From Bryobacterales bacterium (GTDB lineage: Bacteria > Acidobacteriota > Terriglobia > Bryobacterales > Bryobacteraceae), in the NCBI GenBank assembly GCA_003142185.1, contig PLOR01000009.1, positions 133,694 through 179,417 of the forward strand: 45,724 nt of DNA, given 5' to 3'. Of this stretch, positions 11,548 to 45,724 are shown piece after piece. The first letter of the stretch is position 1, and each line of letters starts with the position of its first letter. The position numbers and the translations under genes are program-made. The notes under the pieces were generated by a model, which did no database searches, was not told the origin of the DNA, and was given only the letters and a program-made list of their open reading frames with translations.

Positions 11548-11573
11548 GCGCTTAAGACTGCCGACACTCTCCC

Positions 11574-12848: not shown

Positions 12849-12904
12849 CCGCCTCACAAGTGTACTTTGAACCATCCAAGTTTACCTACGAAAGGACCTA
12901 AGTT

Positions 12905-18193: not shown

Positions 18194-18217
18194 GCGCCTC
18201 AACTCGTGTCTCCTCGT

Positions 18218-19555: not shown

Positions 19556-19658
19556 CTCGATGAAGTCGATCCAAGATGGCGTGCCCTCGATCCGGCGTAT
19601 CCAATACAATCGTTCTGAATGACGACGCGTCTCGCAACCCCAAGACTTGACAAACCCC

Positions 19659-27871: not shown

Positions 27872-28399
27872 ATGACGTTTGAGAAGACGAAGCTGCCAGG
27901 GGTGTTCGAGATTCGTATCGAGCCCCGACCGGACGAGAGGGGTTTTTTTGCGCGGTGCTGGTGTCAGCGGGAGTTTGAAGACAATGGCCTGAATGCGAAG
28001 CTGGCGCAATGCAGTGTTTCATTTAACGTCCGGAAGGGGACGCTGCGAGGCATGCATTATCAAGCCGCACCGAGTGAGGAGGCCAAAGTCGTTCGCTGCA
28101 CCAGGGGGGCGCTGTACGACGTGGTCGTCGATCTGCGCCGGAGCTCGCCAACATTCGGAGATTGGGTGGCGGTGGTTGTGACGGCTGCGAGCCGGAACAT
28201 GGTCTACGTGCCGGAGGGTTGCGCACACGGCTTTCTGACCCTGGAAGACGAGACCGAGGTTCTGTATCAGATTTCGGAGTTCTACAGTCCAGAGTCGGCC
28301 CGGGGGGTGCGCTGGGATGATCCGGCATTTCGAATCGTTTGGCCCGACGAGGTGAAGGTGATCTCCGAACGGGATCGGACGTACCCGGACTTCGAATAA
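27872..28399 (+). CDS. dTDP-4-dehydrorhamnose 3,5-epimerase family (RmlC/RfbC-like)
   Basis: The 175-residue cupin has the RmlC pattern: PDERGFFARCW, the catalytic histidine segment KGTLRGMHYQ, VVRCTRGALYDVVVDLRRSSPTFG, and YVPEGCAHGFLTLEDETEVLYQISEFYSPESARGVRWDDPAF. Full-length family members epimerise C3 and/or C5 of a 4-keto-6-deoxy nucleotide sugar. No rmlA/B/D set is near, and the following genes include a cytidylyltransferase-like enzyme and a C-methyltransferase, so the substrate may be a CDP- rather than dTDP-sugar. Five bases separate it from the next start. Confidence 0.88.
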   Translation: MTFEKTKLPGVFEIRIEPRPDERGFFARCWCQREFEDNGLNAKLAQCSVSFNVRKGTLRGMHYQAAPSEEAKVVRCTRGALYDVVVDLRRSSPTFGDWVAVVVTAASRNMVYVPEGCAHGFLTLEDETEVLYQISEFYSPESARGVRWDDPAFRIVWPDEVKVISERDRTYPDFE

Positions 28400-28404
28400 A
28401 CGCT

Positions 28405-29724: not shown

Positions 29725-29884
29725 ATGCCCACAGAATTTCCCTCGGGCATACTGGCACCAAGATCCCAAACTTTTGGATCTGCGATCTCCGCGAAACATC
29801 GTGGTTGGAGATAACTCCCTTATCGTCAATCTGTTGGCGCGTTGAAACGGATTGGACTTTGGCGTGCTTATCAGCGGGTGCGAC

Positions 29885-30937
29885 ATGAGAATACTATTGA
29901 CTGGGCACAGAGGCTATATCGGCGCAGTGGCGGGACCAATTTTGCGGTCCGCCGGCCACGAGGTTGTCGGCCTGGACACGGACTTATTTGCGGGTTGTGA
30001 GTTCGGGCAACCGGCCGAGGAAATACCAGAGGTCCACAAAGACATCCGCGATCTGACGAGAGCGGATCTCGAGGGCTTTGATGCGGTTGTGCATCTGGCT
30101 GCGTTGTCGAACGACCCGTTAGGCAACCTCGATGGCGACCTTACTTACGACATCAACCACAGGGCCTCAGTCCGGCTGGCCGTACTAGCCAAAGAGGCGG
30201 GCGCGCGGCGCTTCGTTTTCTCCTCGTCCTGCAGCACGTATGGCGCCGCGGGGGACGTGATCCACGACGAGAGTGGCGCGCTCAGTCCCGTGACAGCGTA
30301 TGCCGAATCCAAAGTCCTGGTGGAGCGTGACCTGGCACTGCTGGCGGATGAGCATTTTAGCCCAACTTACCTGAGAAATGCGACCGCTTACGGAGCATCT
30401 CCCAGTCTACGGCTGGACGTTGTCTTGAACGATCTGGTGGCCTGGGCGCATACGACTGGCAAGGTATATATCAAGAGCGACGGGACGCCATGGCGTCCCA
30501 TTGTGCATATTCGCGACATTACGGCGGCGATCCTGAGCGTGCTCGAAGCTCCGCAGGACGCCATTCACAACGAGACTTTCAATGTCGGGCGGACAGAGGA
30601 GAACTACCGCATCCGCGAGCTGGCTGCCATCGTTGCCGAAACCGTTCCGGGTTGCCATGTCGAGTACGCCGCCGACGGTGGACCCGACAAGCGCTGCTAC
30701 CGCATCAATTGTGACAAGATTCGGCGCGTTCTGCCGAGCTTCCGCCCAGAGTGGACAGCCCGCAAAGGAGCGCAGGAGCTATATGAGGCATACCAAACGG
30801 CCGGGTTGCGCTTTGCGGATCTTGAGTGCGGCCGGTACACCCGGATCAGCCACATACAGAAAATGATGAAGGCCGGGCGGTTGGACACGTCGCTGCGATG
30901 GATACCCCAGCCCGTCGCGGCAGCAGTGGGTGCCTGA
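29885..30937 (+). CDS. NAD(P)-dependent SDR epimerase/reductase
   Basis: The 350-residue extended SDR starts [13 protein letters not shown], a TGxxGxxG nucleotide-binding motif. It has [27 protein letters not shown] and the Y-x-x-x-K motif in [29 protein letters not shown] and [14 protein letters not shown] follow. Position between an RmlC-like epimerase and a C-methyltransferase suggests it dehydrates, epimerises or reduces a 4-keto-6-deoxy or C-methylated nucleotide sugar. A 160-nt gap separates it from the DUF4910 gene. The start at 29885 lacks a strong ribosome site. Confidence 0.87.
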
Positions 30938-30963
30938 TCCGCCGCGCCTTTCCAAGAGAGCAT

Positions 30964-32238
30964 ATGGCCACAATCACTCTTCCTACCAACACCCAGCAGC
31001 AAGGAGCCTCAACTAAGGTGTGCCGCTTCTGCGGCGCGGGCTTGCAGCGAACCTTTGTCGACTTAGGGATGTCCCCGCTTTGCGAGACCTACCCGTCACC
31101 CGCCGACCTCAACCGGGGCGAGGTCTACTATCCGCTCCACGTCTACGTCTGCGAGGAGTGCTTCCTGGTACAACTGGAGCAATACGAGAGCGCGGAGAAT
31201 ATCTTTAGCGACTACGCATATTTCTCCTCCTACTCCGATTCCTGGCTCAAACACGCTGATAATTACTGCAACAAGATGATGACACGAATCGGCCTAAACG
31301 GGCAGAGCTTCGTTGTCGAGGTGGCCAGTAACGACGGTTACCTGTTGCAGTATTTCGTCAAGCGCAACGTGCCGGTGTTAGGCATTGAGCCGGCGTCGAA
31401 TGTGGCCAAGGTGGCCGTCGAAAAGGGAGTACCGACGCTGGTCCGGTTCTTTGGCGCGCAACTGGCGGAAGAGTTAGCCGCGGAAGGCCGTTGCGCCGAC
31501 TTGGTTCTCGGCAACAATGTATTGGCGCAGGTCCCAGACCTGAACGATTTTGTGGAAGGGCTCAAGATCTTGCTGAAGCCCGATGGGGTCCTGACGCTGG
31601 AGTTCCCCCACCTGCTGCGGCTGATACAACGAAACGAATTTGACACGATTTACCACGAGCACTTCTCGTATTTTTCGATGATCTCCACCGTTCGCATCCT
31701 GGAGGCTCACGGGCTGAAGGTGTTCGACGTGGAAGAGTTGATGAGTCACGGAGGCTCACTGCGCGTCTACGCCTGCCGAGCGGAGAGCCAGACACACGAT
31801 ATTGAGCCTAAGGTTCGGGAACTGATCGCGGAGGAACAAAGGGCTGGGCTGGCTTCGGTGGAAGGTTACGACAGCTTCGCACGGCAAGTGAAACAGACCA
31901 AATTGGCCTTGGTGGATTTTCTGCTGACTGCCGCACAACAGGGCAAATCGGTTGCAGGTTACGGAGCGCCGGGCAAGAGCGCGACGCTACTGCATTACTG
32001 CGGCATCGGGAAAGATCTCATCGAGTATACGGTGGACCGAAGCCAGTACAAGCAGGGACGGTTCCTGCCGGGTACGCATATTCCGATTTACGATCCAAGC
32101 CGGATTCGCGAGACCAAGCCGGACTATGTCGTCATCCTGCCGTGGAACCTGAAGGACGAGATTATGGAACAACTTCAGTTCATCCGGGAGTGGGGTGGCC
32201 GGTTCGTAGTGCCGATTCCGAAAGTGGCCGTCTATTGA
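30964..32238 (+). CDS. Sugar C-methyltransferase (SAM-dependent, zinc-finger N-terminus)
   Basis: The 424-residue protein has the three-part architecture of TylCIII-type NDP-sugar C-methyltransferases. First is an N-terminal zinc-binding domain (CRFCGAGL then DLGMSPLCETY then YVCEECFLVQLEQ). Next is a central SAM domain with VVEVASNDGYLLQYF and GIEPASNVA, and the catalytic-loop region FEFPHLLRL/YHEHFSYFS, seen here as LEFPHLLRL and TIYHEHFSYFS. Last is a C-terminal domain with VAGYGAPGKSATLLHY and LPWNLKDEI. It would install a branching methyl group on a keto sugar. The ATG at 30964 follows AAGAGAG; longer upstream frames overlap the previous gene. Confidence 0.9.
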   Translation: MATITLPTNTQQQGASTKVCRFCGAGLQRTFVDLGMSPLCETYPSPADLNRGEVYYPLHVYVCEECFLVQLEQYESAENIFSDYAYFSSYSDSWLKHADNYCNKMMTRIGLNGQSFVVEVASNDGYLLQYFVKRNVPVLGIEPASNVAKVAVEKGVPTLVRFFGAQLAEELAAEGRCADLVLGNNVLAQVPDLNDFVEGLKILLKPDGVLTLEFPHLLRLIQRNEFDTIYHEHFSYFSMISTVRILEAHGLKVFDVEELMSHGGSLRVYACRAESQTHDIEPKVRELIAEEQRAGLASVEGYDSFARQVKQTKLALVDFLLTAAQQGKSVAGYGAPGKSATLLHYCGIGKDLIEYTVDRSQYKQGRFLPGTHIPIYDPSRIRETKPDYVVILPWNLKDEIMEQLQFIREWGGRFVVPIPKVAVY

Positions 32239-32263: not shown

Positions 32264-33085
32264 ATGAAAGTGGTTCTCTTCTGCGGAGGGGCCGGCATGC
32301 GGCTCAGGGGCTACGCCGATGACGTCCCCAAACCGATGGTGCAGGTCGGGACTCGACCACTTCTCTGGCACCTGATGAAATACTACTCGCACTTTGGGCA
32401 CACGGAGTTCGTCGTCTGCCTCGGTTACAAGGGTAACTCCATCAAGGATTACTTTCTGCACTACGATGAGTCCGTCTCCAACGATTTCGTCTGGTCGCAG
32501 GCCGGGAAGAAAATCCACTTTCTGAACCGCGATATCGACGACTGGACGATCACCTTCGTGGAGACCGGCGCCAATGCCACCATTGGTGAGCGGCTTAAAG
32601 CAGTGGAATCCCATCTGCAGGGCGAAGAGATGTTCCTAGCGAACTACGGCGACGGACTGAGCGACCTCCCGCTCCCCGATATGTTGGGGGCATTCCGCCA
32701 GAGCCAGGCTGTGGCTTCTCTACTCCTGGTGCAGCCTACGGCGAGTTTTGACATTGTCAACGCCGGGTCTGGGGGAATGGTCACCAACATTTCCGCGCTG
32801 AACCGCACCGACATTTGGATTAACGGCGGCTTCTTCGCGTTGCGCAACGAGATCTTCCGCTACATTCACCCGGGCGACGAACTGGTGCGGGAGCCATTTC
32901 AGCGGCTGATTGAGGAGCAGGCCTTGTTGGCGTACAAGTATACCGGCTTCTGGCAATGCATGGACACTTTTAAGGACAAACAGCGTCTCGAGGAACTGAA
33001 CCAGGGTTCGGCACCATGGAAAGTCTGGCATAAGGCATCGGGACCGGCCTCGACCGGCGCAATGGCGATGTCGGCTCGCGCATGA
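32264..33085 (+). CDS. Glucose-1-phosphate cytidylyltransferase-like nucleotidyltransferase
   Basis: The 273-residue protein activates a hexose-1-phosphate, most likely with CTP as in RfbF. It shows VVLFCGGAGMRLRGYADDVPKPMVQVGTRPLLWHLMKYYSHFG, VVCLGYKGNSIKDYF, ETGANATIGERLKAV, the metal site NYGDGLSDL, and WINGGFFALRNEIF. The segments WHLMKYYSHFG and CLGYKG are closer to RfbF than to RmlA. The signature loop is GGAGMRL rather than GLGTRL. Its stop overlaps the PIG-L gene start in ATGA. No CDP-glucose 4,6-dehydratase is recognised next to it. Confidence 0.85.
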   Translation: MKVVLFCGGAGMRLRGYADDVPKPMVQVGTRPLLWHLMKYYSHFGHTEFVVCLGYKGNSIKDYFLHYDESVSNDFVWSQAGKKIHFLNRDIDDWTITFVETGANATIGERLKAVESHLQGEEMFLANYGDGLSDLPLPDMLGAFRQSQAVASLLLVQPTASFDIVNAGSGGMVTNISALNRTDIWINGGFFALRNEIFRYIHPGDELVREPFQRLIEEQALLAYKYTGFWQCMDTFKDKQRLEELNQGSAPWKVWHKASGPASTGAMAMSARA

Positions 33086-33735
33086 TCCACCTGAACTTGG
33101 GCGGCGGTGCGGCTGAAGCGTTGCAGATACTCTGCTTGGGTGCCCATTCCGACGATATCGAAATTGGCTGCGGCGGCACCATTCTCCGCTTGGCCGAGGA
33201 GCACCCGGGGAGTGTATTTCACTGGGTAGTGTTCAGCGCAATTGGGGTTCGGGAGACCGAGGCGAAATGCGCAGCCGCCATGTTCGCCGGCCAAACTGGC
33301 CTGAGGGGACCGCTGCTGAAAACCTTCCGGGACGGATTTATGCCGTTTGTGGGCGCCGAGGTGAAGGACGTCTTCGAAGAGCTGAAGCAATCGGTCTCCC
33401 CGGATCTTGTCTTTACTCATAACCGCAAGGACGCCCACCAAGACCACCGCCTTTTAGCGGAGCTGACTTGGAACACGTTTCGCGATCATCTCATTCTGGA
33501 ATATGAAATCCCAAAGTACGATGGAGACCTCGGGCAGCCTGGCTTTTTTGTCCCACTCCAGGCCGACGTCTGTCAGAAGAAAACCCGATACATCATAGAC
33601 GCGTTCCAGTCCCAACACTCCAAACGCTGGTTTCGAGAGGACACGTTTCTCTCCCTCATGCGGCTGCGGGGGATGGAATGCAACGCCCCCAGCGGCTACG
33701 CGGAAGCTTTCTACTGCCGCAAGATGGCGCTCTGA
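33082..33735 (+). CDS. PIG-L/LmbE-family deacetylase
   Basis: The 217-residue protein carries the zinc-binding signature as LCLGAHSDDIEIGCGGT (usual form AHPDD) and the second site THNRKDAHQDHRLLAE with the paired histidines. PIG-L enzymes remove acetyl from N-acetyl-glucosamine-type substrates. Here it overlaps the nucleotidyltransferase and closes the branched-sugar cassette, so it probably deacetylates an intermediate of that sugar. Serine in place of proline in AHSDD is a mild deviation; the metal ligands remain. Confidence 0.88.
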   Translation: MIHLNLGGGAAEALQILCLGAHSDDIEIGCGGTILRLAEEHPGSVFHWVVFSAIGVRETEAKCAAAMFAGQTGLRGPLLKTFRDGFMPFVGAEVKDVFEELKQSVSPDLVFTHNRKDAHQDHRLLAELTWNTFRDHLILEYEIPKYDGDLGQPGFFVPLQADVCQKKTRYIIDAFQSQHSKRWFREDTFLSLMRLRGMECNAPSGYAEAFYCRKMAL

Positions 33736-33798: not shown

Positions 33799-35277
33799 AT
33801 GCACGACTTGAAGGGGAAAACGATCCGTGGTGGTCTCGCAAGACTCTCCGCCCAAGGGGCGGGCTTTCTCCTGCGCGTGGGCTCTCTCATGGTATTGGCC
33901 CGGCTCCTCGAACCGAAAGACTTCGGATTAGTGGGTATGGTCACAGCGTTCACGGGAGTTTTGACGCTATTCCGGGATTTTGGGCTTTCGTCTGCCGCCG
34001 TTCAGCGTACCACCGTCACGGAAGAGCAGGTTTCAACACTGTTCTGGATCAATATGTTAGTTGGCGTACTGCTCGGTCTTCTTGCAGTAGCAATGGCACC
34101 GTTCATCGCGGCCTTTTACCACGAGCCCCGACTTTCTAAGGTGACACTTGTCTTGGCAGCCGGCTTCTTCTTCAACGCCGCAGGCGTGCAGCACTCAGCG
34201 CTTCTCCAACGCCAAATGCGTTTCACTGCCTTATCGGTTATCAACATTGTCAGTTTGATTGTGGGCACTGCTATTGCGATTGGGGGGGCTAAGGCGGGTT
34301 ACGGATATTGGTCTCTGGTGGCGATGACGGTCACGCTTCCGATCACCAGCACGATTGGTTTCTGGCTGACCGCCGCCTGGATTCCAGGGATGCCGCGCAA
34401 GCAGGCCGGGGTTCGTTCTATGATCCGTTTTGGCGGCACAGTTACGCTGAATGGTCTTGTCGTCTATGTGGCCAATAACTTCGAGAAGATCTTATTGGGA
34501 CGCTATTGGGGAGTCGACGCGCTCGGCCTCTATGGACGAGCATACCAGCTCGTCAACATTCCGACAGATAACATCAATTCCTCGGTCGGTGAGGTTGCGT
34601 TCTCGGCGCTTTCGCGACTTCAGGACGATCCCCCGCGACTAAAGAGCTACTTCCTGAAAGGGTACTCTCTGGTTCTGGCGCTAACCCTGCCGATTACAAC
34701 TGCCTGTGTGCTGTTTGCGGATGACATAGTTGTCGTTCTCCTGGGACCAAAGTGGAAAGATACTGCCGCGATCTTTCGCTTTTTGGGTCCGACGATCATG
34801 GTCTTCGCTATCGCTAATCCACTATCCTGGCTGCTCTCCTCGATCGGATGGGTCGGACGGAACCTGAAGATCGCTCTGGTTATCGCACCTACGATGATGG
34901 CGGGTTTTGTGATCGCGATGCCCTACGGGCCGCGAGGCGTTGCGTTTGCCTACTCGGCAGTGTTGAGTCTGTGGTTGCTTCCGCTCATCGCCTGGTGCGT
35001 ACGCGGTACGGTGGTATCCTTCTGGGATATTCTGCTGACGGTGAGCCGGCCGCTGGTTTCCAGTGTTGTGGCCGGAGCACTCGCTTTCGGGCTACGGTCG
35101 ATCTACGGTCCGGCGCTGTCTCCTTTTCCACGGCTGGCGATCGAGAGTACCGTGCTTCTCCTTACGTTCCTCGGAATACTCTTGTTTGTCACGGGACAAA
35201 AGGCATTCTATTTGAACCTCGTTCGGGGCTTGACCAAGCGTGAGGCGCCTGAAGAGAGCGCTTTGGTTTCGGTTTAG
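33799..35277 (+). CDS. Polysaccharide flippase of the MOP superfamily (Wzx/TuaB-like)
   Basis: The 492-residue integral membrane protein has about twelve to fourteen hydrophobic helices and the family start KTIRGGLARLSAQGAGFLLRVGSLMVLARLLEPKDFGLVGMV. FRDFGLSSAAVQ and the central FEKILLGRYWGVDALGLYGRAYQLVNIPTDNI are typical of Polysacc_synt_3/TuaB/WzxC flippases. It would move the lipid-linked repeat unit across the inner membrane to the polymerase. A 63-nt gap follows PIG-L, and the SDR gene starts 10 nt after its stop. Confidence 0.9.
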   Translation: MHDLKGKTIRGGLARLSAQGAGFLLRVGSLMVLARLLEPKDFGLVGMVTAFTGVLTLFRDFGLSSAAVQRTTVTEEQVSTLFWINMLVGVLLGLLAVAMAPFIAAFYHEPRLSKVTLVLAAGFFFNAAGVQHSALLQRQMRFTALSVINIVSLIVGTAIAIGGAKAGYGYWSLVAMTVTLPITSTIGFWLTAAWIPGMPRKQAGVRSMIRFGGTVTLNGLVVYVANNFEKILLGRYWGVDALGLYGRAYQLVNIPTDNINSSVGEVAFSALSRLQDDPPRLKSYFLKGYSLVLALTLPITTACVLFADDIVVVLLGPKWKDTAAIFRFLGPTIMVFAIANPLSWLLSSIGWVGRNLKIALVIAPTMMAGFVIAMPYGPRGVAFAYSAVLSLWLLPLIAWCVRGTVVSFWDILLTVSRPLVSSVVAGALAFGLRSIYGPALSPFPRLAIESTVLLLTFLGILLFVTGQKAFYLNLVRGLTKREAPEESALVSV

Positions 35278-35287
35278 CAGGCAACCA

Positions 35288-36124
35288 ATGTTGAAGGCAC
35301 CCCTCCAGAAACTCGGGACGGAACGGACGGACGAAGGTCTTTACGGTGACGGACGGGCTTGCGCCCAAGTGGACCGAACGCAGATCGATGGAGGCAGTGG
35401 CCCGGGCCGCGTGGCCGTAGTGACCGGGGCTGGCAGCGGAGTCGGGCGTGCCTTAGCGATCGCACTGGCGCGCGAAGGGGTGGCGGTATGTCTCGTCGGG
35501 AGAGATCCGATCAAGCTGGCAGCGACCGCAGCCGTCGCCCGGCCGTTCTCACCGGTGACCGAATTCCAAATCGATTTGACTGTTGAAGACGCTCTCCAGC
35601 CGCTCATGCAGCACCTGGAGAGAGGAGCTGGCAGACTGGATGTTCTGATTCACTGTGCCGGCGTGATTCAACAGGATCCGATGGAACGCGCCCGCCTTAC
35701 CGACTTCGACTTCCAATATGCCACCAACGTCCGCGCTCCATACGCGTTGACCCAGCGCCTGCTTCCTTCGTTGATGGCAGCCCGTGGGCAGATTGTGTTC
35801 ATCAACTCCAGCGTCGGGTTGACCGCCAAACGGCCGGACATAGGCCAATATGCCGCGACAAAACACGCTTTGAAAGCGATCGCGGACAGTTTGCGGGAAG
35901 AGGTTAATCCAAAAGGACTTCGTGTGCTTACGGTATATTTGGGCCGCACAGCCACGCCGATGCAAGAAACCATCAGCAGGCAAGAGGGACGCGCCTATCA
36001 CCCAGAAACCCTTCTGCAACCGGAGGACGTCGCTTCGGTGGTTCTTAATGCACTGATGCTTCCGCCGACGGCGGAGGTGACGGATATTTCCATTCGCCCC
36101 ATGGCGAGACCCAAGGGTAATTGA
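35288..36124 (+). CDS. Classical SDR oxidoreductase
   Basis: The protein (about 278 residues) has GRVAVVTGAGSGVGRALAIALAREG (TGxxxGxG cofactor site), LIHCAGVIQQDP, the catalytic serine in INSSVGL, and Y-x-x-x-K in QYAATKHALKA. It is therefore an intact NAD(P)-dependent reductase or dehydrogenase. About 40 polar residues precede the Rossmann domain, more than usual, and the exact start is uncertain. It is the last gene before the giant surface-protein gene and may reduce a keto sugar of the cluster or act on something unrelated; its substrate cannot be read. Confidence 0.85.
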   Translation: MLKAPLQKLGTERTDEGLYGDGRACAQVDRTQIDGGSGPGRVAVVTGAGSGVGRALAIALAREGVAVCLVGRDPIKLAATAAVARPFSPVTEFQIDLTVEDALQPLMQHLERGAGRLDVLIHCAGVIQQDPMERARLTDFDFQYATNVRAPYALTQRLLPSLMAARGQIVFINSSVGLTAKRPDIGQYAATKHALKAIADSLREEVNPKGLRVLTVYLGRTATPMQETISRQEGRAYHPETLLQPEDVASVVLNALMLPPTAEVTDISIRPMARPKGN

Positions 36125-36217: not shown

Positions 36218-36221
36218 GAGG
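36218..36221 (+). promoter_or_regulatory. Ribosome binding site of the giant gene
   Basis: GAGG lies 8 nt before the first of two consecutive ATG codons at 36230. It supports 36230 as the start and places a normal signal peptide at the N-terminus. Confidence 0.6.
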
Positions 36222-36229
36222 TAAGAGAG

Positions 36230-39200
36230 ATGATGAACAATTCGCTGGTCCGTGCGGGTCTCGCGCAGGGCAAGACCATCCGCCTTGCAGTGTGTGGCAT
36301 TGCGGTCCTTATGTGCTGGCTCAACCCGGCAACGTTGTCTGCCGCGTCTACCATCACCTACGTACAAGGCAATAACTCCGATCCGCAAGCGTCGAACACG
36401 TCGGTGAAGGTCACCTACACAGCCGCACAGGTCGCCGGCGACCTCAACGTCATCGCCGTGGGGTGGAATGACAGTACAGCCACGGTCAGCACCGTCACGG
36501 ATACGACCGGCAACGTATACACCCGAGCAGTCGGACCGACGGTTATCTCCGGTCTCGAGTCACAATCCATCTATTACGCAAAGAACATCGCCGCGGCGAC
36601 GGCGGGAGCGAACAGCGTCACGGTGACGTTCTCCGCTGCCGCAGCGTTTCCGGACATTCGGATCCTCGAGTATAGCGGTGCAGATCCAAATAACCCGGTG
36701 GATGTGACGGCAGCGGCTTCGGGCAACAGCGCTACCAGCAGCAGCGGCGCTGTAACGACGACCAACTCGACCGATCTGCTTTTTGGCGCCAACATGGTTC
36801 AAACCTCGACCACTGGTCCGGGCACCGGCTTCGCAAGCCGCATGCTGACGTCGCCTGACGGCGATATTGCCGAGGACGAGATGGTCACTGCCACGGGCAG
36901 CTATAGCGCCACCGCTCCGCTTACTTCCGGCCAGTGGATCATGCAGATGGTCGCTTTCCGCACGCCGGCGGGCGGCACAGGTGCGCCTACGGTGAGCAGT
37001 GTATCGCCGAATAGCGGGACGACCGCAGGCGGGACAGCAGTTACGATCACGGGGACGAACTTCGCCACGGGAGCCACGGTGACGTTTGGAACGGCGGCAG
37101 CGACCAACGTGGCTGTGGTCAACAGCACAACCGTTGCGGCCACAACTCCAGCGGGAAGCGCTGGCGCAGTGACGGTAACAGTCACGGTCAGCGGGCAGAG
37201 CGGGAGCTTGGCCAGTGGTTTTACCTACGCTCTTGCGCCGACGGTGACCAGCGTATCGCCGAACAGCGGGTCGACTTTGGGCGGGACAGCAGTCACAATC
37301 ACGGGGACTAACTTCGCCGCGGGAGCGACGGTAACGTTCGGCGCGACGGCGGCGACCAGCGTGGTGGTGGTCAGCAGCACCTCGATCACAACCACAACTC
37401 CGGCGGGAAGCGCCGGTGCAGTTACGGTGACGGTGACCGTTGGCGGCCAAAGCGGAAGTCTAACCAGCGGATTCACCTATGCAGTTTTCCCAACGGTGAG
37501 CAGTGTTTCGCCAATTGGCGGACCGACGGCGGGCGGAACAGCAGTCACGATCACGGGCACTAGCTTTGCCACGGGAGCAACAGTGACGTTCGGCGCGACG
37601 GCGGCGACCAACGTGGTGGTGGTCAGCAGCACCTCGATCACGGCTACCTCTCCGGCGGGCAGCCCGGGTGCGGTAACGGTGACAGTGACGGTCAGCGGGC
37701 ACAGCGGCAGCCTGGCTAATGGGTTCACCTATACCGTTGCGCCGACAGTGACCGCCGTTTCGCCGAACAGCGGGTCGACGGCGGGCGGAACAGCGGTCAC
37801 GATCACAGGAACAAACTTCGCCACGGGAGCTACCGTAACGGTTGGCGGAGCAGCGGCGACGAGCGTGGTGGTGGTGAGCGGAACCCAGATCACGGCGACG
37901 ACCCCGGCGGGCAGTGCGGGAGCAGTGACAGTTACAGTGACGAATCTGGGCGCACAGAGCGGGAGCCTAGCCAGCGCGTTCACCTATGTGACGTCGGGCA
38001 CTCCGAGCGCGCCTACCAACCTGACGGTTGCCGCAGGCGGCCCCGGGCCAACCTATGTTAGTGGCCAAGGGTATTACAATACGACATCTTTAACTACCCA
38101 CACCACTGCATCGTTTAATAGCACCGGCGGCGATCTGGTACTGCTGTTCGCTTCCTCTCATGCCGGCGTTGCGTTTACTCCGAGCGATAGCTTGGGCAAC
38201 ACTTGGATCCCGATAGCTGGGCCGACCAGCACGGTGTTGGGTTTCGATTTGCGTTCGCAGGTGTGGTATGCTCCGCATCCTACGGTTGGCGCCGCTCAGA
38301 CGGTTACCATGAACCTGTCAATAGCGCAGCCTCTGGTGATGTCGATTGTAGTTGTGAAAGGCTCGAACGGCTCTTCGCCGATTAACGCGATATCCCTCGT
38401 TGGCAGCGACAACGGAACCTCAAGCATCAACGTCATCAGTCCGAGCATAACCACCACGGGCACAAACGATCTGCTGGTTGGTTTTGTGAAGACCAATGGT
38501 ACAGAGACTTTCACCGCTGGGCCAGGGTTCACACTGCAAGCGGCGACAACCGTGTTAAACCTCACCGGCGAGACAGAACTAGAAGCGGCAGCGGGCACTT
38601 ATGACGCAACATTCACGCTCAGCACGGGCGTTACCTGGCAATCCGTGGTGGGAGCGGTAAACAACAATCCGAACCAGACGACGTTATCCTGGACGTCGTC
38701 CACCGAGGCCGGCGGCACCATCAGCCAGTATTTGGTGGAGCGCTGCCAGGGCGCCGGATGCACCAGCTTCGCGCAGATCGGAACGTCTACCACTACCACA
38801 TACAACGACACGGGACTGACGGCGTCCACCAGCTATAGCTATCGGGTGCGGGCCGAAGACACAGCCAGCAACCTGGGGCCATACTCAAGCGTGGTGACAG
38901 CCGCGACTGCGGCTCCGATTCCCTCGCTGCCGGGAAATCTGACCGCAACGGTAGCATCGGGCACTCAAGTCAATCTCGCGTGGGTTGCATCGTCGGAAAC
39001 GGGCGGGACGGTCAGCAGTTACCTGGTGCAACGCTGCCAGGGCGCGGGTTGCACCAACTTCGCGCAGGTTGGAACGTCCGCAACCAACACATACAACGAC
39101 ACAGGACTGGCAACCGGCAACAGCTACAGCTACCGGGTGCAGGCCAGCGACACGGCCGGGGGCCTGAGCCCATTCTCCAACGTGGTTAGCGCTACTCCGG

Positions 39201-42200
39201 GTCCGTCGACGGCACCCAGCGGTTTGACGGCGACGGCGGCCAGCATGGTTCAGATCAACCTGAGCTGGACAGCATCAACGAGCAGTGTCGGCCTGGCGAA
39301 TTATATTGTGCAACGATGCCAAGGGGCAGGCTGCACGAACTTCGCGCAGGTAGCGTCATTTGCGGCGACCACGACGACGTACAGCGACACGGGTCTGGCG
39401 GCCGGCACCAGCTATAGCTACCAGGTGCAGGCCAGCGACACGGCTGGGGGCCTGAGCCCATTCTCCAACGTAGCCACGGCGACCACGCTTTCGTCAGCCA
39501 CGGCGATTACCTACGTGCAGGGCGCCTACACCACACCACAATCGTCCGTGACGACCGCCAGTGTCGCATTCACGGCCGCGCAGGCCGCCGGGGATCTCAA
39601 CGTCGTGGTGGTGGGATGGAACAATAGCACGGCCACCGTCAGCTCGGTCACCGACACGAGCCACAACACCTACACTCTCGCTGTGGGCCCCACGATCCAG
39701 AGCGGAGTCGCGACGCAGTCGATTTACTTCGCCAAGAACATTGTGGCTGCCGGCGCCGGCGCAAACTCGGTCACCGTGACTTTTTCGGCTGCCGCGGCGG
39801 AGCCCGACATCCGCATTCTCGAATACACCGGAGCCGATCCCAACAACCCAGTGGACGTGACGGCTGCTAGCAGCGGCAGCAGCGCAACCAGCAGCAGCGG
39901 GTCCGCAACCACGACCAATGCGACGGATTTGATCTTCGGCGCCAACCTGGTTCAAACCACGACCACCGGTCCGGGCACTGGCTTCACCAGCCGCATGCTG
40001 ACGTCGCCCGACGGCGATATCGCCGAGGATGAGATGGTTACCGCCACGGGTAGCTATAGCGCCACCGCACCGCTTACTTCCGGACAGTGGATCACGCAGA
40101 TGGTTGCCTTCCGCACACCATCCGCAGGCTCAACTGCGCCAACAGTGAGTAGCGTGTCGCCGAACACAGGATCGACGGCCGGCGGGACCGCAGTTACCAT
40201 CACCGGAACAAACTTCGCCACGGGAGCGACGGTGACGTTTGGAACGGCAGCGGCGACCAATGTAGTGGTAGTGAGCGCCACCCAGATAACCGCGACAACT
40301 CCGGCAGGGGCCGCCGGTGCGGTGACGGTGACAGTGACCGTCAGCACGAAGAGCGGAAGCCTGACTAATGCGTTCACCTACGTTATTCCCCCAACGGTGA
40401 CCAGCGTATCGCCGAATACCGGGTCGACGGGAGGCGGAACAGCAGTTACCATCACCGGGACCAACTTTGCCACGGGAGCGACGGTGACATTCGGTACAGC
40501 AGCGGCGACCAACGTAGTGGCGGTGAGCAGCACCTCAATCACGGCTACGGCTCCGGCCGGAAGCGCCGGTGCGGTGACGGTGACAGTGACCGTCAGTGGG
40601 GTGAGCGGCAGCCTGGCCAGCGGGTTCACCTATGCAGTCATTCCGGCGGTAACCAGTGTCTCGCCGAATACCGGGTCGACGGCGGGCGGGACAGCAGTTA
40701 CCATCACGGGAACGAACTTCGCCACAGGCGCCACGGTGACGTTTGGCGCGGCTGCGGCGACCAATGTGGTGGTAGTGAGCGCGACCCAGATAACCGCCAC
40801 GACTCCGGCGGGAAGCGCCGGTGCGTTGACGGTCACGGTGACCGTCAACGGACAGAGCGGAAGCTTGGCCAGTGGGTTTACCTATGCACTTCCGCCGACG
40901 GTGACCAGTGTGTCGCCGAATACAGGGTCGACTTTGGGCGGGACAGCAGTCACCATCACGGGGGCGAACTTCGCCGCGGGAGCCACGGTGACGTTTGGAT
41001 CAACGGCAGCAACCAGCGTAGTGGTGGTGAGCAGTACCTCAATCACCGCTACAACTCCGGCCGGAAGCGCCGGTGCGGTGACAGTGACGGTGACCGTTGG
41101 CGGCCAAAGCGGAAGCCTGGCCACCGGGTTTACGTACGCGGCTTTTCCAACGGTGACCAGTGTATCGCCGAATAGCGGGCCGACGGCGGGCGGGACAGCA
41201 GTCACTATCACGGGGACGAACTTTGCCACGGGAGCGGCGGTGACGTTTGGAGCGACTGCTGCGACCAACGTTGTGGTAGTGAGCGCGACCCAGATCACTG
41301 CCACAACTCCAGCGGGAACCGCGGGAGCGGTAACGGTCACAGTAACAGTCAACGGGCACAGCGGAAGCTTGGCCAGTGGGTTCACCTATTCGGCTCCGCC
41401 GACAGTGACCGGTATATCGCCAAATAGCGGCTTGACGGCGGGCGGGACAGCAGTAACCATCACCGGGACGAGCTTCGCCACGGGAGCGACCGTGACGTTT
41501 GGGGCGACGGCGGCGACCAACGTAGTCATAGTGAGCGCGACTCAAATCACGGCAACAACTCCAGCGGGAAGCGCCGGTGCGGTCACGGTAACAGTAACGG
41601 TCGGCGGGCAAAGCGGAAGCTTGGCCGCTGGGTACACCTATGTACTCGCCACCATGATTAGCTTTGTGCAGGGCAACTCTGCCACTCCACAATCAAGCCA
41701 AACCAGTGTCCCAGTCACCTTCACCTCGGCACAGACCGCCGGCCACCTCAACGTGGTGGTAGTTGGTTGGAACGATAGCGCTGCGACAGTCACCTCGGTC
41801 ACCGACACGAGCCACAACACCTACACACTCGCGGTAGGTCCCACCATTCAAAGCGGAGTCGCCGCCCAGTCGATTTACTATGCAAAGAACATCCTGGGGG
41901 CAGCCGCTGGAGCGAATGTCGTCACCGTGACTTTCTCAGTCGCCGCGGGGTACCCCGACATCCGCGTCCTGGAGTACACAGGCGCGGATCCCAATGCTCC
42001 AGTAGACGTGACGGCCGCCAGCAGCGGCAGTAGCGCTACCAGCAGCAGCGGCGCGGTTACCACGACCAACGCGACCGATCTGCTTTTCGGCGCCAACCTG
42101 GTTCAAACCGCGACCACCGGTCCGGGAACTGGCTTCACCAGTCGCCTGCTGACCGTGCCGGATGCCGATATCGCCGAGGACGAGATGGTCACCGCCGTCG

Positions 42201-45200
42201 GCAGCTACAGCGCCACCGCACCGATCAATTCCGGGCAGTGGATCATGCAGATGGTGGCCTTCCGCACTCCCACGGTTCCGCCGACGGTGACCAGCGTGTC
42301 GCCGAACAGCGGTACGAATCTGGGCGGGACAGCAGTCACGATCACGGGGGCGAACTTCGCCGCCGGAGCGACGGTGACGGTTGGCGCGACGGCGGCAACC
42401 AACGTAGTGGTAGTGAGCGCCACGCAGATCACCGCCACAACTCCAGTGGGAATCGCGGGACCGGCAACCGTGACGGTGACGGTGAACCAGCAAAGCGGCA
42501 GCTTGGCCAGTGGGTTCACCTATGTACTTATCCCAACGGTAACCAGCGTTTTGCCGAATAGCGGCGCAACCGTGGGCGGGACGGCAGTCACGATTACAGG
42601 AACGAACTTCGCCTCGGGAGCGAGCGTGACGTTCGGCGGTACGGCGGCAACCAACGTGGCGGTGGCAAGCGCGACGCAACTCACGGCCACCGCTCCAGCA
42701 GGGACCGCCGGCGCCGTTACGGTGACCGTAACTGTCGCCGGCCAGAGCGGCAGCTTGGCCAGTGGGTTCACGTATCTCATTATCCCAACCGTAACCAGCG
42801 TTTCGCCGAGCGGCGGGCCGACAGCGGGCGGGACAGCGGTTACGATTACGGGGACGAACTACGCCGTGGGGGCGACCGTGACGTTTGGCGCGACGGCCGC
42901 GACCAACGTGGTGGTGGTAGGCGCCACCCAGATCACCGCGACAGCTCCAGTGGGAAGTGCGGGACCGGTGACGGTGACAGTAACGTCCGGCGGGCAAAGC
43001 GGCAGCTTGGCCAGTGGGTACATCTATACCCTTCCGCCGACAGTGACCGCTGTGTCGCCGAATAACGGGCCGACCGGCGGCGAGACACCGGTCACGATCA
43101 CGGGAACGAATTTTGCCACGGGAGCTACCGTGACGGTTGGCGGAACGGCGGCAACGAGTGTGGTGGTGGTAAGCGGAACCCAGATCACGGCGACAACCCC
43201 GGCGGGTAGCGCGGGAGCAGCGACGGTGACGGTGACGAATCTCGGAGTACCGAGCGGGAGCTTGGCGAGCGCGTTCACCTATGTGGTAACTCCGACCGCG
43301 CCTACCGGATTGACGGTTGCCGGAGGTGGCCCCGGCCCAACCTATGTTAGTGGCCAAGGTTACTACAGCGATCCCTTTTTGACCGCCCACACGACTGCCC
43401 CGTTCGACAGTACCGGTGGCGATCTGATACTGGTGTTCGCCTCCTGTCATAATGGTGTTACCTTTACCCCAAGCGATAGCTTTGGCAACACTTGGATCTC
43501 AATAGCTGGACCAACCAACACAGCGGTGGGTTCCGATTTACGTTCACAGGTGTGGTACGCGCCGCATCCGACTGTCGGCGCCGGTCAGACCGTTACCATG
43601 AGCGTTTCGATAGCGCAGCCCCTGGTGATGTCGGTCATTGTCGTGAAAGGCTCGAACACTTCTTCGCCAATTGACGCGATATCCCTCATTGGCGCCGACA
43701 ACGGAACCAATTCCGACAACATCGTCAGCCCGAGCTTAACCACGACCAGCGCAAACGATCTGCTGGTTGGTTTCGTAAAGACCTACGGTGTGGAGGATTT
43801 CACCGCCGGCTTAGGCTTCACGCTGCAGTCGGCGGCAACCGTGTTGAATCTTACTGCCGAGACCGGAGCCGCGGCAACGCCTGGCAGTTATGACGCGACC
43901 TTTACAACAAGCGTACATGGCAGTTGGCAATCCGTGATTGGAGCGGTAACCAACAATCCGAACCAGACGACGTTATCCTGGACCGCGTCCACGGAGACCG
44001 GCGGCGGAACCATTAGCCAATACCTGGTGGAGCGCTGCCAGGGCGCGGGATGCAGCAGCTTCGCGCAAATCGGAACGTCTACCACTACTACGTACAATGA
44101 CACCGGATTGACGGCATCCACCAGCTACAGCTATCGGGTCCGGGCCGAAGACACAGTCAGCGTGCTGGGCCCGTATTCCAGCGTTTTCACGCTCACAACA
44201 CCGGCTCAGATTCCCTCGCTGCCGGGAAATCTCACGGCAACGGCGGCATCCACCACGCAGATGAACCTCGCGTGGGTTCCATCGACGGAAACGGGCGGAA
44301 CGGTTGGCAGTTACCTGGTACAGCGCTGCCAGGGCGCGGGATGCACCAACTTTGCGCAGATCGGAACGTCCGCCACCGCCACGTACAGTGACACGAACCT
44401 TTCCGCTACCACCAGCTACAGGTACCGGGTGCAAGCGAGCGACACGGCAGCCAACCTGGGCCCATTTTCCAACCTTGCCACGACCACCACACTAGGTCCG
44501 CCGACCGCACCCGCGAATCTGACAGCGGCAGCGGCCAGCATGGTCCAGATCAGCCTGAACTGGACGGCATCCGCAACCGGTGTTGGCCTGGCAAACTATA
44601 TTGTGCAACGCTGCCAGGGGACTGGCTGCACGAACTTCGTGCAGGTGGCGTCATTCCCGGCGGCCACTAACGCCGTCCCGCCGATTCCAGTCACCACGTA
44701 CACCGACACGGGCCTGGCGGGCGGTACAACTTACAGCTACCAGATACAGTCCAGCGATACCAACGCAGCACTGAGCCCATTTTCCAACGGGGCTACCGCG
44801 ACCACGCTTTCGTCGGCCACAGCGATTAACTACGTGCAGGGCGCCTACTCCGTACCGCAATCACCCCAGACCATTGTCACTGTCGGATTCACGGCCGCAC
44901 AGGCCGCCGGGGATCTCAATGTGGTGGTGGTGGGATGGAGCGATAGCACGGCCACGGTCAGCTCGGTCACCGACAAGAGTGGCAATACTTACACGCTCGC
45001 GGTGGGCCCGACGATCCAGAGTGGAGTCGCGTCGCAGTCGATTTACTACGCCCAGAACATTGCGGCCGCCGCTGCCGGTGCAAATTCCGTCACGGTGACT
45101 TTCTCGGTTGCCGCGCTGTACCCCGACATCCGCATTCTGGAATACACCGGAGCCGATCCCAACAACCCAGTGGACGTGACGGCCGCCAGCAGCGGCAGCA

Positions 45201-45724
45201 GTGCGACCAGCAGCAGCACCGCGACTACCACCAGCGCGGCGGACCTCATCTTCGGCGCTAACCTTGTCCAGGGCGGCACCCTTAGTTCGGGCACCGGCTT
45301 CACCACCCGGCTGCTGACGGTGCCGGATGCCGATATCGCCGAGGACGAGATGGTCACCGCCGTCGGCAGCTACAGCGCCACCGCAAATCTCAATTCCGGG
45401 CAGTGGATCATGCAGATGGTCGCTTTCCGCCTCGTGACATGCTCCGGCGGGGCGCCATCGGCACCAACGAATCTCACGGCGACCGCCACAGGTGTCGGCC
45501 AGATCAACCTGAGCTGGAATCCGTCAATTAGCTGTCCTGGCATAGCGCACTACGTGGTGCAACGTTGCCAGGGGGCCAGTTGTACAAGCTTCGCACAGGT
45601 CGGGACGCCTGCGGGAACGACATTCAGTGACACTGGCCTCGCCAGCAACACCAGCTTCAGCTACCAGGTGCAGGCCGTAGACAACAATTCGAACTCGGGT
45701 CCTTTCTCAAGCGTGGCCAGTGCA
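36230..45724 (+). CDS. Giant secreted IPT/TIG and fibronectin-III repeat protein (3' end outside window)
   Basis: The frame is open for all 3,165 codons to the window edge, so the protein exceeds 3,165 residues. A signal peptide (NNSLVRAGLAQGKTIRL then AVCGIAVLMCWLNPATLSAA) starts it. Domain order by residue: A1 42-246; TIG1-4 253-587; FN3-1 split by B1 (about 595-895); FN3-2 and FN3-3 to about 1087; A2 1092-1297; TIG5-10 1304-1807; A3 1809-2014; TIG11-14 2018-2353; FN3-4 split by B2; FN3-5 and FN3-6 to about 2861; A4 2864-3069; FN3-7 from about 3075. It is probably a surface adhesin or matrix protein. No enzyme motif is visible. The anchor or secretion signal at the C-terminus is not in view. 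Confidence 0.88.
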   Translation, partial: MMNNSLVRAGLAQGKTIRLAVCGIAVLMCWLNPATLSAASTITYVQGNNSDPQASNTSVKVTYTAAQVAGDLNVIAVGWNDSTATVSTVTDTTGNVYTRAVGPTVISGLESQSIYYAKNIAAATAGANSVTVTFSAAAAFPDIRILEYSGADPNNPVDVTAAASGNSATSSSGAVTTTNSTDLLFGANMVQTSTTGPGTGFASRMLTSPDGDIAEDEMVTATGSYSATAPLTSGQWIMQMVAFRTPAGGTGAPTVSSVSPNSGTTAGGTAVTITGTNFATGATVTFGTAAATNVAVVNSTTVAATTPAGSAGAVTVTVTVSGQSGSLASGFTYALAPTVTSVSPNSGSTLGGTAVTITGTNFAAGATVTFGATAATSVVVVSSTSITTTTPAGSAGAVTVTVTVGGQSGSLTSGFTYAVFPTVSSVSPIGGPTAGGTAVTITGTSFATGATVTFGATAATNVVVVSSTSITATSPAGSPGAVTVTVTVSGHSGSLANGFTYTVAPTVTAVSPNSGSTAGGTAVTITGTNFATGATVTVGGAAATSVVVVSGTQITATTPAGSAGAVTVTVTNLGAQSGSLASAFTYVTSGTPSAPTNLTVAAGGPGPTYVSGQGYYNTTSLTTHTTASFNSTGGDLVLLFASSHAGVAFTPSDSLGNTWIPIAGPTSTVLGFDLRSQVWYAPHPTVGAAQTVTMNLSIAQPLVMSIVVVKGSNGSSPINAISLVGSDNGTSSINVISPSITTTGTNDLLVGFVKTNGTETFTAGPGFTLQAATTVLNLTGETELEAAAGTYDATFTLSTGVTWQSVVGAVNNNPNQTTLSWTSSTEAGGTISQYLVERCQGAGCTSFAQIGTSTTTTYNDTGLTASTSYSYRVRAEDTASNLGPYSSVVTAATAAPIPSLPGNLTATVASGTQVNLAWVASSETGGTVSSYLVQRCQGAGCTNFAQVGTSATNTYNDTGLATGNSYSYRVQASDTAGGLSPFSNVVSATPGPSTAPSGLTATAASMVQINLSWTASTSSVGLANYIVQRCQGAGCTNFAQVASFAATTTTYSDTGLAAGTSYSYQVQASDTAGGLSPFSNVATATTLSSATAITYVQGAYTTPQSSVTTASVAFTAAQAAGDLNVVVVGWNNSTATVSSVTDTSHNTYTLAVGPTIQSGVATQSIYFAKNIVAAGAGANSVTVTFSAAAAEPDIRILEYTGADPNNPVDVTAASSGSSATSSSGSATTTNATDLIFGANLVQTTTTGPGTGFTSRMLTSPDGDIAEDEMVTATGSYSATAPLTSGQWITQMVAFRTPSAGSTAPTVSSVSPNTGSTAGGTAVTITGTNFATGATVTFGTAAATNVVVVSATQITATTPAGAAGAVTVTVTVSTKSGSLTNAFTYVIPPTVTSVSPNTGSTGGGTAVTITGTNFATGATVTFGTAAATNVVAVSSTSITATAPAGSAGAVTVTVTVSGVSGSLASGFTYAVIPAVTSVSPNTGSTAGGTAVTITGTNFATGATVTFGAAAATNVVVVSATQITATTPAGSAGALTVTVTVNGQSGSLASGFTYALPPTVTSVSPNTGSTLGGTAVTITGANFAAGATVTFGSTAATSVVVVSSTSITATTPAGSAGAVTVTVTVGGQSGSLATGFTYAAFPTVTSVSPNSGPTAGGTAVTITGTNFATGAAVTFGATAATNVVVVSATQITATTPAGTAGAVTVTVTVNGHSGSLASGFTYSAPPTVTGISPNSGLTAGGTAVTITGTSFATGATVTFGATAATNVVIVSATQITATTPAGSAGAVTVTVTVGGQSGSLAAGYTYVLATMISFVQGNSATPQSSQTSVPVTFTSAQTAGHLNVVVVGWNDSAATVTSVTDTSHNTYTLAVGPTIQSGVAAQSIYYAKNILGAAAGANVVTVTFSVAAGYPDIRVLEYTGADPNAPVDVTAASSGSSATSSSGAVTTTNATDLLFGANLVQTATTGPGTGFTSRLLTVPDADIAEDEMVTAVGSYSATAPINSGQWIMQMVAFRTPTVPPTVTSVSPNSGTNLGGTAVTITGANFAAGATVTVGATAATNVVVVSATQITATTPVGIAGPATVTVTVNQQSGSLASGFTYVLIPTVTSVLPNSGATVGGTAVTITGTNFASGASVTFGGTAATNVAVASATQLTATAPAGTAGAVTVTVTVAGQSGSLASGFTYLIIPTVTSVSPSGGPTAGGTAVTITGTNYAVGATVTFGATAATNVVVVGATQITATAPVGSAGPVTVTVTSGGQSGSLASGYIYTLPPTVTAVSPNNGPTGGETPVTITGTNFATGATVTVGGTAATSVVVVSGTQITATTPAGSAGAATVTVTNLGVPSGSLASAFTYVVTPTAPTGLTVAGGGPGPTYVSGQGYYSDPFLTAHTTAPFDSTGGDLILVFASCHNGVTFTPSDSFGNTWISIAGPTNTAVGSDLRSQVWYAPHPTVGAGQTVTMSVSIAQPLVMSVIVVKGSNTSSPIDAISLIGADNGTNSDNIVSPSLTTTSANDLLVGFVKTYGVEDFTAGLGFTLQSAATVLNLTAETGAAATPGSYDATFTTSVHGSWQSVIGAVTNNPNQTTLSWTASTETGGGTISQYLVERCQGAGCSSFAQIGTSTTTTYNDTGLTASTSYSYRVRAEDTVSVLGPYSSVFTLTTPAQIPSLPGNLTATAASTTQMNLAWVPSTETGGTVGSYLVQRCQGAGCTNFAQIGTSATATYSDTNLSATTSYRYRVQASDTAANLGPFSNLATTTTLGPPTAPANLTAAAASMVQISLNWTASATGVGLANYIVQRCQGTGCTNFVQVASFPAATNAVPPIPVTTYTDTGLAGGTTYSYQIQSSDTNAALSPFSNGATATTLSSATAINYVQGAYSVPQSPQTIVTVGFTAAQAAGDLNVVVVGWSDSTATVSSVTDKSGNTYTLAVGPTIQSGVASQSIYYAQNIAAAAAGANSVTVTFSVAALYPDIRILEYTGADPNNPVDVTAASSGSSATSSSTATTTSAADLIFGANLVQGGTLSSGTGFTTRLLTVPDADIAEDEMVTAVGSYSATANLNSGQWIMQMVAFRLVTCSGGAPSAPTNLTATATGVGQINLSWNPSISCPGIAHYVVQRCQGASCTSFAQVGTPAGTTFSDTGLASNTSFSYQVQAVDNNSNSGPFSSVASA
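36353..36966 (+). repeat. Domain A1 (first copy of a ~200-residue beta-rich domain)
   Basis: This is the first of six related domains (A1, B1, A2, A3, B2, A4). The shared skeleton is ITYVQG, GDLNVIAVGWNDS, VTDTTGNVY, GPT, SIYYAKNI, GANSVTVTFS, ILEYSGADPNNPVDV, TDLLFGAN, GTGFASR, AEDEMVTATGSYSAT and GQWIMQMVAFR. It has the look of a jelly-roll lectin-like fold; I cannot name the family. Confidence 0.7.
36986..37990 (+). repeat. IPT/TIG array 1, four units of ~252 bp
   Basis: Units start at 36986, 37238, 37490 and 37742. The first three are exactly 252 bp (84 codons); the fourth is 249 bp to the linker. Each reads PTVxSVSPNSGxTxGGTAVTITGTNFA then GATVTFG, AATNVVVV, ITATTPAGSAGAVTVTVTV, SGSLASGFTY. 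The fourth unit is distinctive: TVTVGG and a TNLGAQSG insertion. Confidence 0.85.
38012..38911 (+). repeat. FN3-1 with nested domain B1
   Basis: The FN3 first strand PTNLTVAAGG (from 38012) is separated from the rest of the FN3 (TTLSWTSSTEAGG onward, from about 38675) by ~205 residues of domain B1. B1 has the same skeleton as domain A: GGDLVLLFASS, SDSLGNTW, AGPTST, QVWYAPHPTVGAAQTVTMNLS, NDLLVGFV, GPGFTLQ, GTYDATF. B is thus an insertion in an FN3 fold and a divergent relative of A. Confidence 0.65.
38912..39491 (+). repeat. FN3-2 and FN3-3
   Basis: Two FN3 domains (about 38912-39199 and 39200-39491) with the pattern LTATxAS, LSWTAS, YLVQRCQGAGCTNFAQVG, TYNDTGL and SYSYRVQASDTAGGLSPFSN. Each carries the CQGAGC cysteine pair. 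Confidence 0.85.
39503..40120 (+). repeat. Domain A2
   Basis: Second A-type copy. Its C-terminal part (TSPDGDIAEDEMVTATGSYSA, then LTSGQW) matches A1 rather than A3 or A4. Confidence 0.7.
40139..41650 (+). repeat. IPT/TIG array 2, six units of exactly 252 bp
   Basis: Units start at 40139, 40391, 40643, 40895, 41147 and 41399, each 252 bp. None has the distinctive TVTVGG/TNLG fourth-unit sequence of arrays 1 and 3, so this array expanded from internal-type units. Confidence 0.85.
41654..42273 (+). repeat. Domain A3
   Basis: Third A-type copy. It shares the variant TVPDADIAEDEMVTAVGSYSA with A4, and NSGQW in place of TSGQW. Confidence 0.7.
42281..43288 (+). repeat. IPT/TIG array 3, four units of ~252 bp
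   Basis: Units start at 42281, 42533, 42785 and 43037. The last one repeats the distinctive TVTVGG and TNLG features of the last unit in array 1, showing the whole array was copied as a block. Confidence 0.85.
43298..44205 (+). repeat. FN3-4 with nested domain B2
   Basis: Same nested arrangement as at 38012: PTGLTVAGGGPGPTYVSGQGYY opens B2, and the FN3 resumes at NNPNQTTLSWTASTETGG. The DNA of the two copies is nearly identical over long stretches, for example around 38040 and 43330. Confidence 0.65.
44206..44812 (+). repeat. FN3-5 and FN3-6
   Basis: Two FN3 domains matching FN3-2 and FN3-3 in order. FN3-6 has an extra loop (NAVPPIPV, near 44668-44691) absent from FN3-3. Confidence 0.8.
44819..45436 (+). 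repeat. Domain A4
   Basis: Fourth A-type copy, closest to A3 in its C-terminal part. It is followed by VTCSGG rather than by a TIG unit. Confidence 0.7.
45454..45724 (+). repeat. FN3-7, running to the window edge
   Basis: APTNLTATATG, QINLSWNPSISCPGIAHYVVQRCQGASC and SFSYQVQAVDNN mark a seventh FN3. It carries an additional cysteine (SISCPG), and another (VTCSGG) lies just before it; these are not seen in the other copies. Confidence 0.8.

Follow-up and report, generated by a model that had tools for sequence, protein, structure and literature searches.

Periscope proteins, which include SasG, Rib, Sgo_0707 and CdrA, carry long and highly identical repeats, as described in PMC8201768. Their stalk of similar folded domains in tandem on a surface protein and their recombining repeats resemble what we propose for a giant protein encoded at the end of a 45,724-nucleotide stretch of bacterial DNA (hereafter, the window). 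Unlike the periscope proteins portrayed there, the giant protein has TIG repeats of 77.6% DNA identity, and these are interrupted by FN3 blocks and by copies of an unnamed module that we call YVQG after its start, or of its diverged form, YVSG. The GH140 apiosidase-like enzymes (PF13204; PDB 8t9w, 3kzs/5msy) are another point of comparison. Their domain follows the same modules in a complete paralogue of the same genome (contig C82), but Pfam shows no PF13204 in the 3,177 residues that the window's gene encodes up to the edge. Regarding PEP-CTERM/exosortase surface proteins, four exosortases of the genome score above the cut-off, PEP-CTERM models match it 10 times, and a paralogue on contig C96 lies near an exosortase; unlike in those proteins, a PEP-CTERM-like tail is absent from 30 closed homologous C-termini, and the window gene's own end is missing. 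Phage tail-associated depolymerases come close in another way, as YVQG-bearing proteins of putative depolymerase activity occur near tail gene matches in a viral collection (see below). Unlike them, the window's gene is chromosomal, far larger, repeat-rich and placed within an EPS cluster. Compared with type I-secreted RTX adhesins and two-partner-secreted exoproteins, the giant protein starts with a Sec-like N-terminus, as judged by eye, and the Pfam matches of the part present include no RTX or TPS domain. The NCBIfam model NF058597 (choice-of-anchor Z repeating domain) matches 14 stretches of the protein, with 271.3 bits against a cut-off of 30 and the best match on a TIG repeat. It is a name at the level of the domain, comes with no visible anchor and says nothing about the YVQG modules. 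Giant repeat-rich exported proteins are already a known kind; what sets this one apart is a module without a name, together with its conserved neighbours. Our literature search returned nothing tied to this protein type or to the EPS cassette beside it, which is not proof of absence from print.

The frame of the giant gene runs on the plus strand from an ATG at 36230 to 45724, giving 3,165 codons with no stop up to the final base of the contig. The window comprises positions 133694-179417 of contig C28, which is 179,417 bases long; its right edge is the contig end, so it is the assembly that cuts the gene short, whatever window is chosen. Counted from the first in-frame ATG (36194), the frame has 3,177 codons with its 3′ edge open. 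We favour the start at 36230, because a possible ribosome-binding site read from the sequence, GAGG (36218-36221, plus strand), lies 8 nt 5′ of it and because a paralogue on contig C50 has a methionine in the corresponding position. Given the local base composition, chance would leave so long a frame without a stop with a log10 P of -40.6. Comparing C28 with the C50 paralogue over 1,804 aligned codons, we counted 136, 102 and 473 differences at codon positions 1, 2 and 3, respectively, and obtained a dN/dS of 0.15 (0.21 over the last 311 codons). This codon-position pattern and the low dN/dS show that the plus strand codes. The stretch 36230-45724 is a real gene, under purifying selection at the protein level. 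The original prediction had described a stop-free frame from this ATG to the last base, had called it the biggest feature of the window and had warned that simple ORF calls may report antisense fragments in its place. All of this was borne out: six antisense ORFs of at least 150 aa lie wholly within the gene, the largest of them (41936-43450) encoding 504 aa, and no closed plus-strand ORF of that size appears inside it in this ORF listing. The six antisense ORFs are by-products.

Combining Pfam with a genome search and local models, we assigned 14 TIG, seven FN3, four YVQG and two YVSG domains to the protein; Pfam alone gives 14 TIG and six FN3 stretches. All features are on the plus strand. 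The protein opens with a Sec-type signal-peptide-like N-terminus (36230-36343), in which a basic n-region, a hydrophobic core and LSA followed by AS were recognised by eye. Next come YVQG module 1 (36344-36961), TIG repeats 1-4 (36986-37987), YVSG module 1 (38084-38701; its model slightly overlaps the next FN3), FN3 domains 1-3 (38639-39478), YVQG module 2 (39497-40114), TIG repeats 5-10 (40139-41641), YVQG module 3 (41648-42265) and TIG repeats 11-14 (42281-43282). This third TIG block is followed by YVSG module 2 (43367-43990), FN3 domains 4-6 (43928-44797), YVQG module 4 (44816-45430) and a seventh FN3 (45461-45721), the final domain before the contig end. The TIG repeats, in blocks of four, six and four, have a period of 252 bp or 84 residues. 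Pfam lists four further families, three of which (Ig_Rha78A_N, RHD_dimer and fn3_4) pass their cut-offs as a whole; we set all four aside because no single stretch of any of them passes and their best stretches sit on TIG or FN3.

YVQG is an all-beta module of about 200 residues, and YVSG is homologous to it (hhalign probability 99.9, E 6.6e-32, 27% identity). Not one of 60 YVQG copies matched Pfam at E≤0.01, and one YVQG and one YVSG copy searched against NCBIfam gave no match over a cut-off; we disregarded an NCBIfam match to MAST_ArtA_sort, which at E 0.062 scored 13 bits where 150 are required. No described CBM or other domain model of Pfam or NCBIfam matched these copies at those thresholds, and a PDB sequence search gave YVQG no name. 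The AlphaFold model of YVQG module 4 (44822-45424) is all beta, with a mean pLDDT of 97.3 and a pTM of 0.93. Using this model, a Foldseek search of the PDB returned no match at E≤0.001. VIA-align reached a best Z of 7.2 over 109 residues, which is a generic jelly-roll likeness at the level of a common arrangement.

Scanning GTDB genomes, we found a YVQG relative encoded in 43 of 127 pattern stretches, which fall into 40 loci. By their titles, these loci belong to Acidobacteria (20; Terriglobia and others), Verrucomicrobiota (5), Proteobacteria (5), Nitrospira (4), Chloroflexi (3), Deltaproteobacteria (2) and a Myxococcaceae member (1). All but one are titled as MAGs, the exception being a Bradyrhizobium locus (L106). 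The best-matching named loci suggest that the window's host is probably a member of the Acidobacteriota. We also checked 61 genomes, made up of the window's own genome plus 60 relatives. A query of YVQG module 4 plus FN3 matched 29 of them, mostly over the FN3 part only. The match over the module itself was strong in the window's genome and in G031 (56% identity, E 9.7e-58), and it was weaker in G060 (8.6e-17) and G009 (1.7e-12). The sole genome of the same genus has no module, and its best match to the window's cytidylyltransferase is 37%. In G009, a distant relative (L170, C1:6137000-6144500) alternates TIG pairs with YVQG-like modules and has a different N-terminal region.

The giant gene stands at the end of an EPS gene cluster on the same strand. 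Immediately upstream of it is an SDR gene (35240-36124), preceded by a polysaccharide flippase of the Wzx/MOP type (33799-35277), a PIG-L family deacetylase (33082-33735) and a glucose-1-phosphate cytidylyltransferase-like gene (32264-33085; best NCBIfam model 217 bits, below the cut-off of 300). Further upstream (28339-32238) are the recurrent-cassette genes that encode the DUF4910 protein, the epimerase and the C-methyltransferase. Also part of the cluster is a 449-aa product (18206-19555) that neither Pfam nor NCBIfam matches; its close relatives lie directly 3′ of the YVQG genes in L085 (at 71 bp) and in L086 (at 470 bp). Two more EPS-cluster proteins with no Pfam or NCBIfam match (19647-21665 and 21987-23453) have hydrophobic stretches near the N-terminus.

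Comparing 25 EPS-cluster proteins of the window with the ORFs of the YVQG loci, and then ten EPS proteins picked after that first comparison at E<1e-40, we found at least one cassette gene in 13 of the 40 YVQG loci, at least two kinds in 10 and at least three in seven. The cassette-bearing loci are six from Acidobacteria (L079, L085, L086, L087, L115, L116), three from Nitrospira (L088, L091, L095), three from Proteobacteria (L092, L098, L117) and one Myxococcaceae MAG (L112). The kinds that recur include the PIG-L deacetylase, the glucose-1-phosphate cytidylyltransferase, the C-methyltransferase, DUF4910, the epimerase, the flippase and FemAB, with others. The PIG-L gene is the nearest cassette gene in eight of the 13 loci, and only 4, 31 and 57 bases separate it from the YVQG gene in L116, L087 and L085, respectively (between stop-to-stop frames). 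Two controls at E<1e-40, one of 410 kb of contig edges from the window's own genome and the other of 85 kb from the 27 loci of relatives found by the module plus FN3 search, gave no cassette match. In the remaining 27 of the 40 loci, nothing from the cassette matches at E<1e-40, and even at E<1e-12 there are 15 loci that lack any EPS gene of the window; many of these loci are cut by contig ends. Around the paralogues on C82 and C108, 20 kb and 16 kb hold no EPS gene of the window. In G031, the YVQG gene and a 75% cytidylyltransferase are on separate contigs.

We calculated a base rate for the cytidylyltransferase from 30 YVQG loci, spread over 27 genomes that together carry 26 copies of the gene (L106 left out; three loci assigned to their genomes by accession prefix). 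The gene lies inside the fetched YVQG locus in 10 of the 27 genomes, against an expectation of 0.095. Homologues sharing 50% identity or more occur in 20 of the 27 YVQG genomes versus 2 of 59 relatives with no strong YVQG match, a count that leaves out a half-length match at 50% in G059. Both comparisons overstate the statistical evidence, because related genomes are not independent and because a single class supplies all 59 comparison genomes, whereas several phyla are represented among the 27 with YVQG.

The module is also found fused to other domains. The complete paralogue on C82 reads YVQG ×2, TIG, YVQG, FN3 ×6, an apiosidase-like PF13204 domain (157.7 bits against a cut-off of 26.5) and PF12904. 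Its tail aligns with the solved apiosidase 8t9w over 423 residues (E 4.2e-21), and we regard its activity as putative. In other loci, YVQG is accompanied by galactose-oxidase-like Kelch domains and PF09118 (L088), by LamG (PF13385) and a region that looks propeller-like by eye (L085), or by a region that looks beta-helix-like by eye and has no Pfam match (L099). The proteins of L079 and L087 end in FN3 domains and in domains that are Ig-like by eye. On contig C96 of the window's genome (L012, C96:38001-58000), a further paralogue occupies two frames (9032-10387 and 10236-13292) with a TIG repeat split between them, which means either a frameshift or an error in the sequence. In its vicinity are an exosortase (C96:55911-56681), an apiosidase-like match (C96:51748-52326) and a gene related to the window's EPS glycosyltransferase.

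Seven loci of the IMG/VR collection encode YVQG, and four of them have it on a protein with an apiosidase (two), a GH5 or a GH26 domain. In L317, YVQG is joined to a cellulase-like GH5 domain; tail-fibre PHROGs are matched by the gene that follows, and a tail-spike PHROG is matched weakly (E 4.1e-6) by the gene two places ahead of the YVQG gene. In L316, a YVQG protein with no Pfam match is encoded shortly after a minor tail protein gene. YVQG is combined with GH26 in L319, with an apiosidase and PF12904 in L314 and L320, and with TIG in L318, and L315 is a fragment. For L314, L315, L318, L319 and L320, the viral nature is that given by the IMG/VR collection; four neighbouring proteins of L320 found no match in PHROG. 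YVQG module 4, used as a protein query, matched none of 50,697 named phage records and none of 72,556 plasmid records. The YVQG proteins of L314, L316, L317, L319 and L320 are possible depolymerases.

YVQG occurs near one type of EPS locus, on polysaccharide hydrolases and near phage tail genes, and this combination is best explained if it is a carbohydrate-binding module. It probably binds a bacterial polysaccharide. Our preferred reading, which we hold to have slightly better than even chances, is that the product is a giant multi-domain protein, exported and rod-like, that likely binds the EPS made beside it and serves as a cross-linker or scaffold of the matrix. The signal-like start would direct export. 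The 14 TIG and seven FN3 domains would form a long stalk, presumably a rod, and the six YVQG/YVSG modules that interrupt it would act as carbohydrate-binding modules for the cell's own EPS, made by the adjoining locus. Six such modules on one rod would make it a multivalent cross-linker, or a scaffold that organises the matrix. A broader proposal is tentative: YVQG may be an undescribed CBM family for a particular EPS, strung in several copies by hosts on giant matrix-organising rods that the cluster for this EPS encodes, and used also by phage tail-linked hydrolases that find and cut the same polymer.

The gene product had been called probably the polysaccharide's protein partner. This is partly supported, by the conserved EPS neighbourhood, with 13 of 40 loci against none in the 410-kb control; a physical partnership and surface display are putative. 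The C-terminal anchor that had been suggested as a check did not turn up. Looking for an anchor-like tail by hydropathy, a PEP-CTERM-like end and the LPXTG pattern, we found none in the 30 closed C-termini of relatives and paralogues (27 named loci, C82, C108 and the second C96 frame), the end of the window's gene itself being missing. The 10 genomic PEP-CTERM matches include none on C82, C96 or C108.

We examined how the end of the gene was lost. Contig C50 (18,416 bases; C50:1-18416, L010) carries a shorter second copy, with 2,356 codons from the last stop to the contig end, and it ends at the same homologous base as C28. The last 23 bases of the window (45702-45724) are identical to the last 23 of C50, which makes an assembly break at near-identical paralogue ends probable. 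Per 50-base block, C28 and C50 share 66-84% identity over 44815-45311 and 82-100% from 45312 on. Used as a pattern with up to two mismatches, the final 19 bases are present only at the ends of C28 and C50. The shared break base suggests that the assembler collapsed near-identical gene ends. The simplest reading would be that both ends were joined into a short piece that was then lost from the assembly; none of the 119 contigs is shorter than 2,510 bases, pointing to a cut-off of about 2.5 kb, under which a short shared tail would fall. Upstream of its copy, C50 has a diverged piece of the SDR gene (266 aligned bp, 83%), and it also matches the window's epimerase (E 2.1e-43). The giant gene was thus probably duplicated along with part of its upstream flank, and the C50 copy looks like a duplicate of the EPS locus end placed elsewhere. 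Gene callers and assemblers easily lose giant repeat proteins that lie at contig edges; here, two paralogues break at one base.

Reading 116 contig starts and 60 contig ends by eye (the longest frame per contig start, and also frames of at least 60 aa), we found no continuation of the gene. The same stretches, translated in six frames, gave no match at E<1e-3 to any of six local domain models or to any of 17 sequences taken from the tails or flanks of relatives and paralogues; the start of C102 is all N and not judgeable, and twelve other stretches hold some N. The propeller-like tail of L085 matches C78 and C108, neither of which continues the giant frame. Contig C86 (L205, C86:1-2500) begins within an open frame of 171 codons for a secreted-looking protein. 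A short translated stretch, ARLKPCPDT..., recurs at contig starts and ends of the genome (e.g. L135, L141, L179, L190, L262), suggesting an interspersed repeat that breaks the assembly. By analogy with the relatives, the missing C-terminus may be a short Ig/FN3 end or an effector, either LamG with a propeller-like region or an apiosidase-like hydrolase. We take a short Ig/FN3 end like those of L079 and L087, or else the LamG/propeller end known from L085, to be a little more likely than an apiosidase end of the C82 type, since these three loci share the same EPS cassette.

The apiosidase end is at the heart of the strongest alternative, according to which the protein is a secreted polysaccharide-degrading enzyme of the GH140 type, and the TIG, FN3 and YVQG domains only position it on a plant or bacterial polysaccharide. 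Such an enzyme is what C82 appears to be, with its FN3 ×6-PF13204-PF12904 end and its long alignment to 8t9w, and the pairing of YVQG with an apiosidase recurs in L314 and L320. We nevertheless consider this explanation unlikely for the window's gene. The relatives with the same cassette end otherwise; the three PF13204 matches of the genome (C82, C96 and C31) are not at a contig edge where they would continue the giant frame; and a C82-type tail is missing from the 116 contig starts and 60 contig ends.

Improbable, in our estimate, is that the protein is a periscope-type adhesin of variable length, in which stalk length matters and the YVQG modules, having no particular tie to the EPS, are spacers or attach to particles or other cells. 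The tandem TIGs with their 84-residue period fit such a protein, as does their number before the break, 14 in C28 and 12 in C50. When compared with C50, the first, third, fourth and fifth TIGs of C28 best match the copy at the same position while others best match copies elsewhere, and this displacement suggests recombination within the arrays. Against this, the TIGs of C28 average just 77.6% DNA identity (79.0% between neighbours), and the comparison is one between two paralogues of a single genome. A spacer role also leaves both the recurring EPS neighbourhood and the hydrolase fusions unexplained. Gene conversion was considered for YVSG module 1, which has 98% protein identity to C50, and was dropped, as its DNA has 87-99% identity per 100 bases compared with 84-95% in its surroundings. 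Finally, that the open frame is an artefact of GC-rich sequence facing a true antisense gene, as the six antisense ORFs inside it could be taken to mean, is practically untenable, and we rejected it in view of the plus-frame dN/dS and codon-position pattern against C50 and of the complete series of recognised domains, Pfam families included, on the plus frame.

We return to the preferred reading of a matrix cross-linker or scaffold. One unnamed module joins the EPS clusters of several phyla, giant exported proteins, glycoside hydrolases and putative phage proteins. If YVQG binds EPS, it would offer a handle on how the matrix is built in these probably soil-dwelling bacteria and on how phages recognise that matrix.
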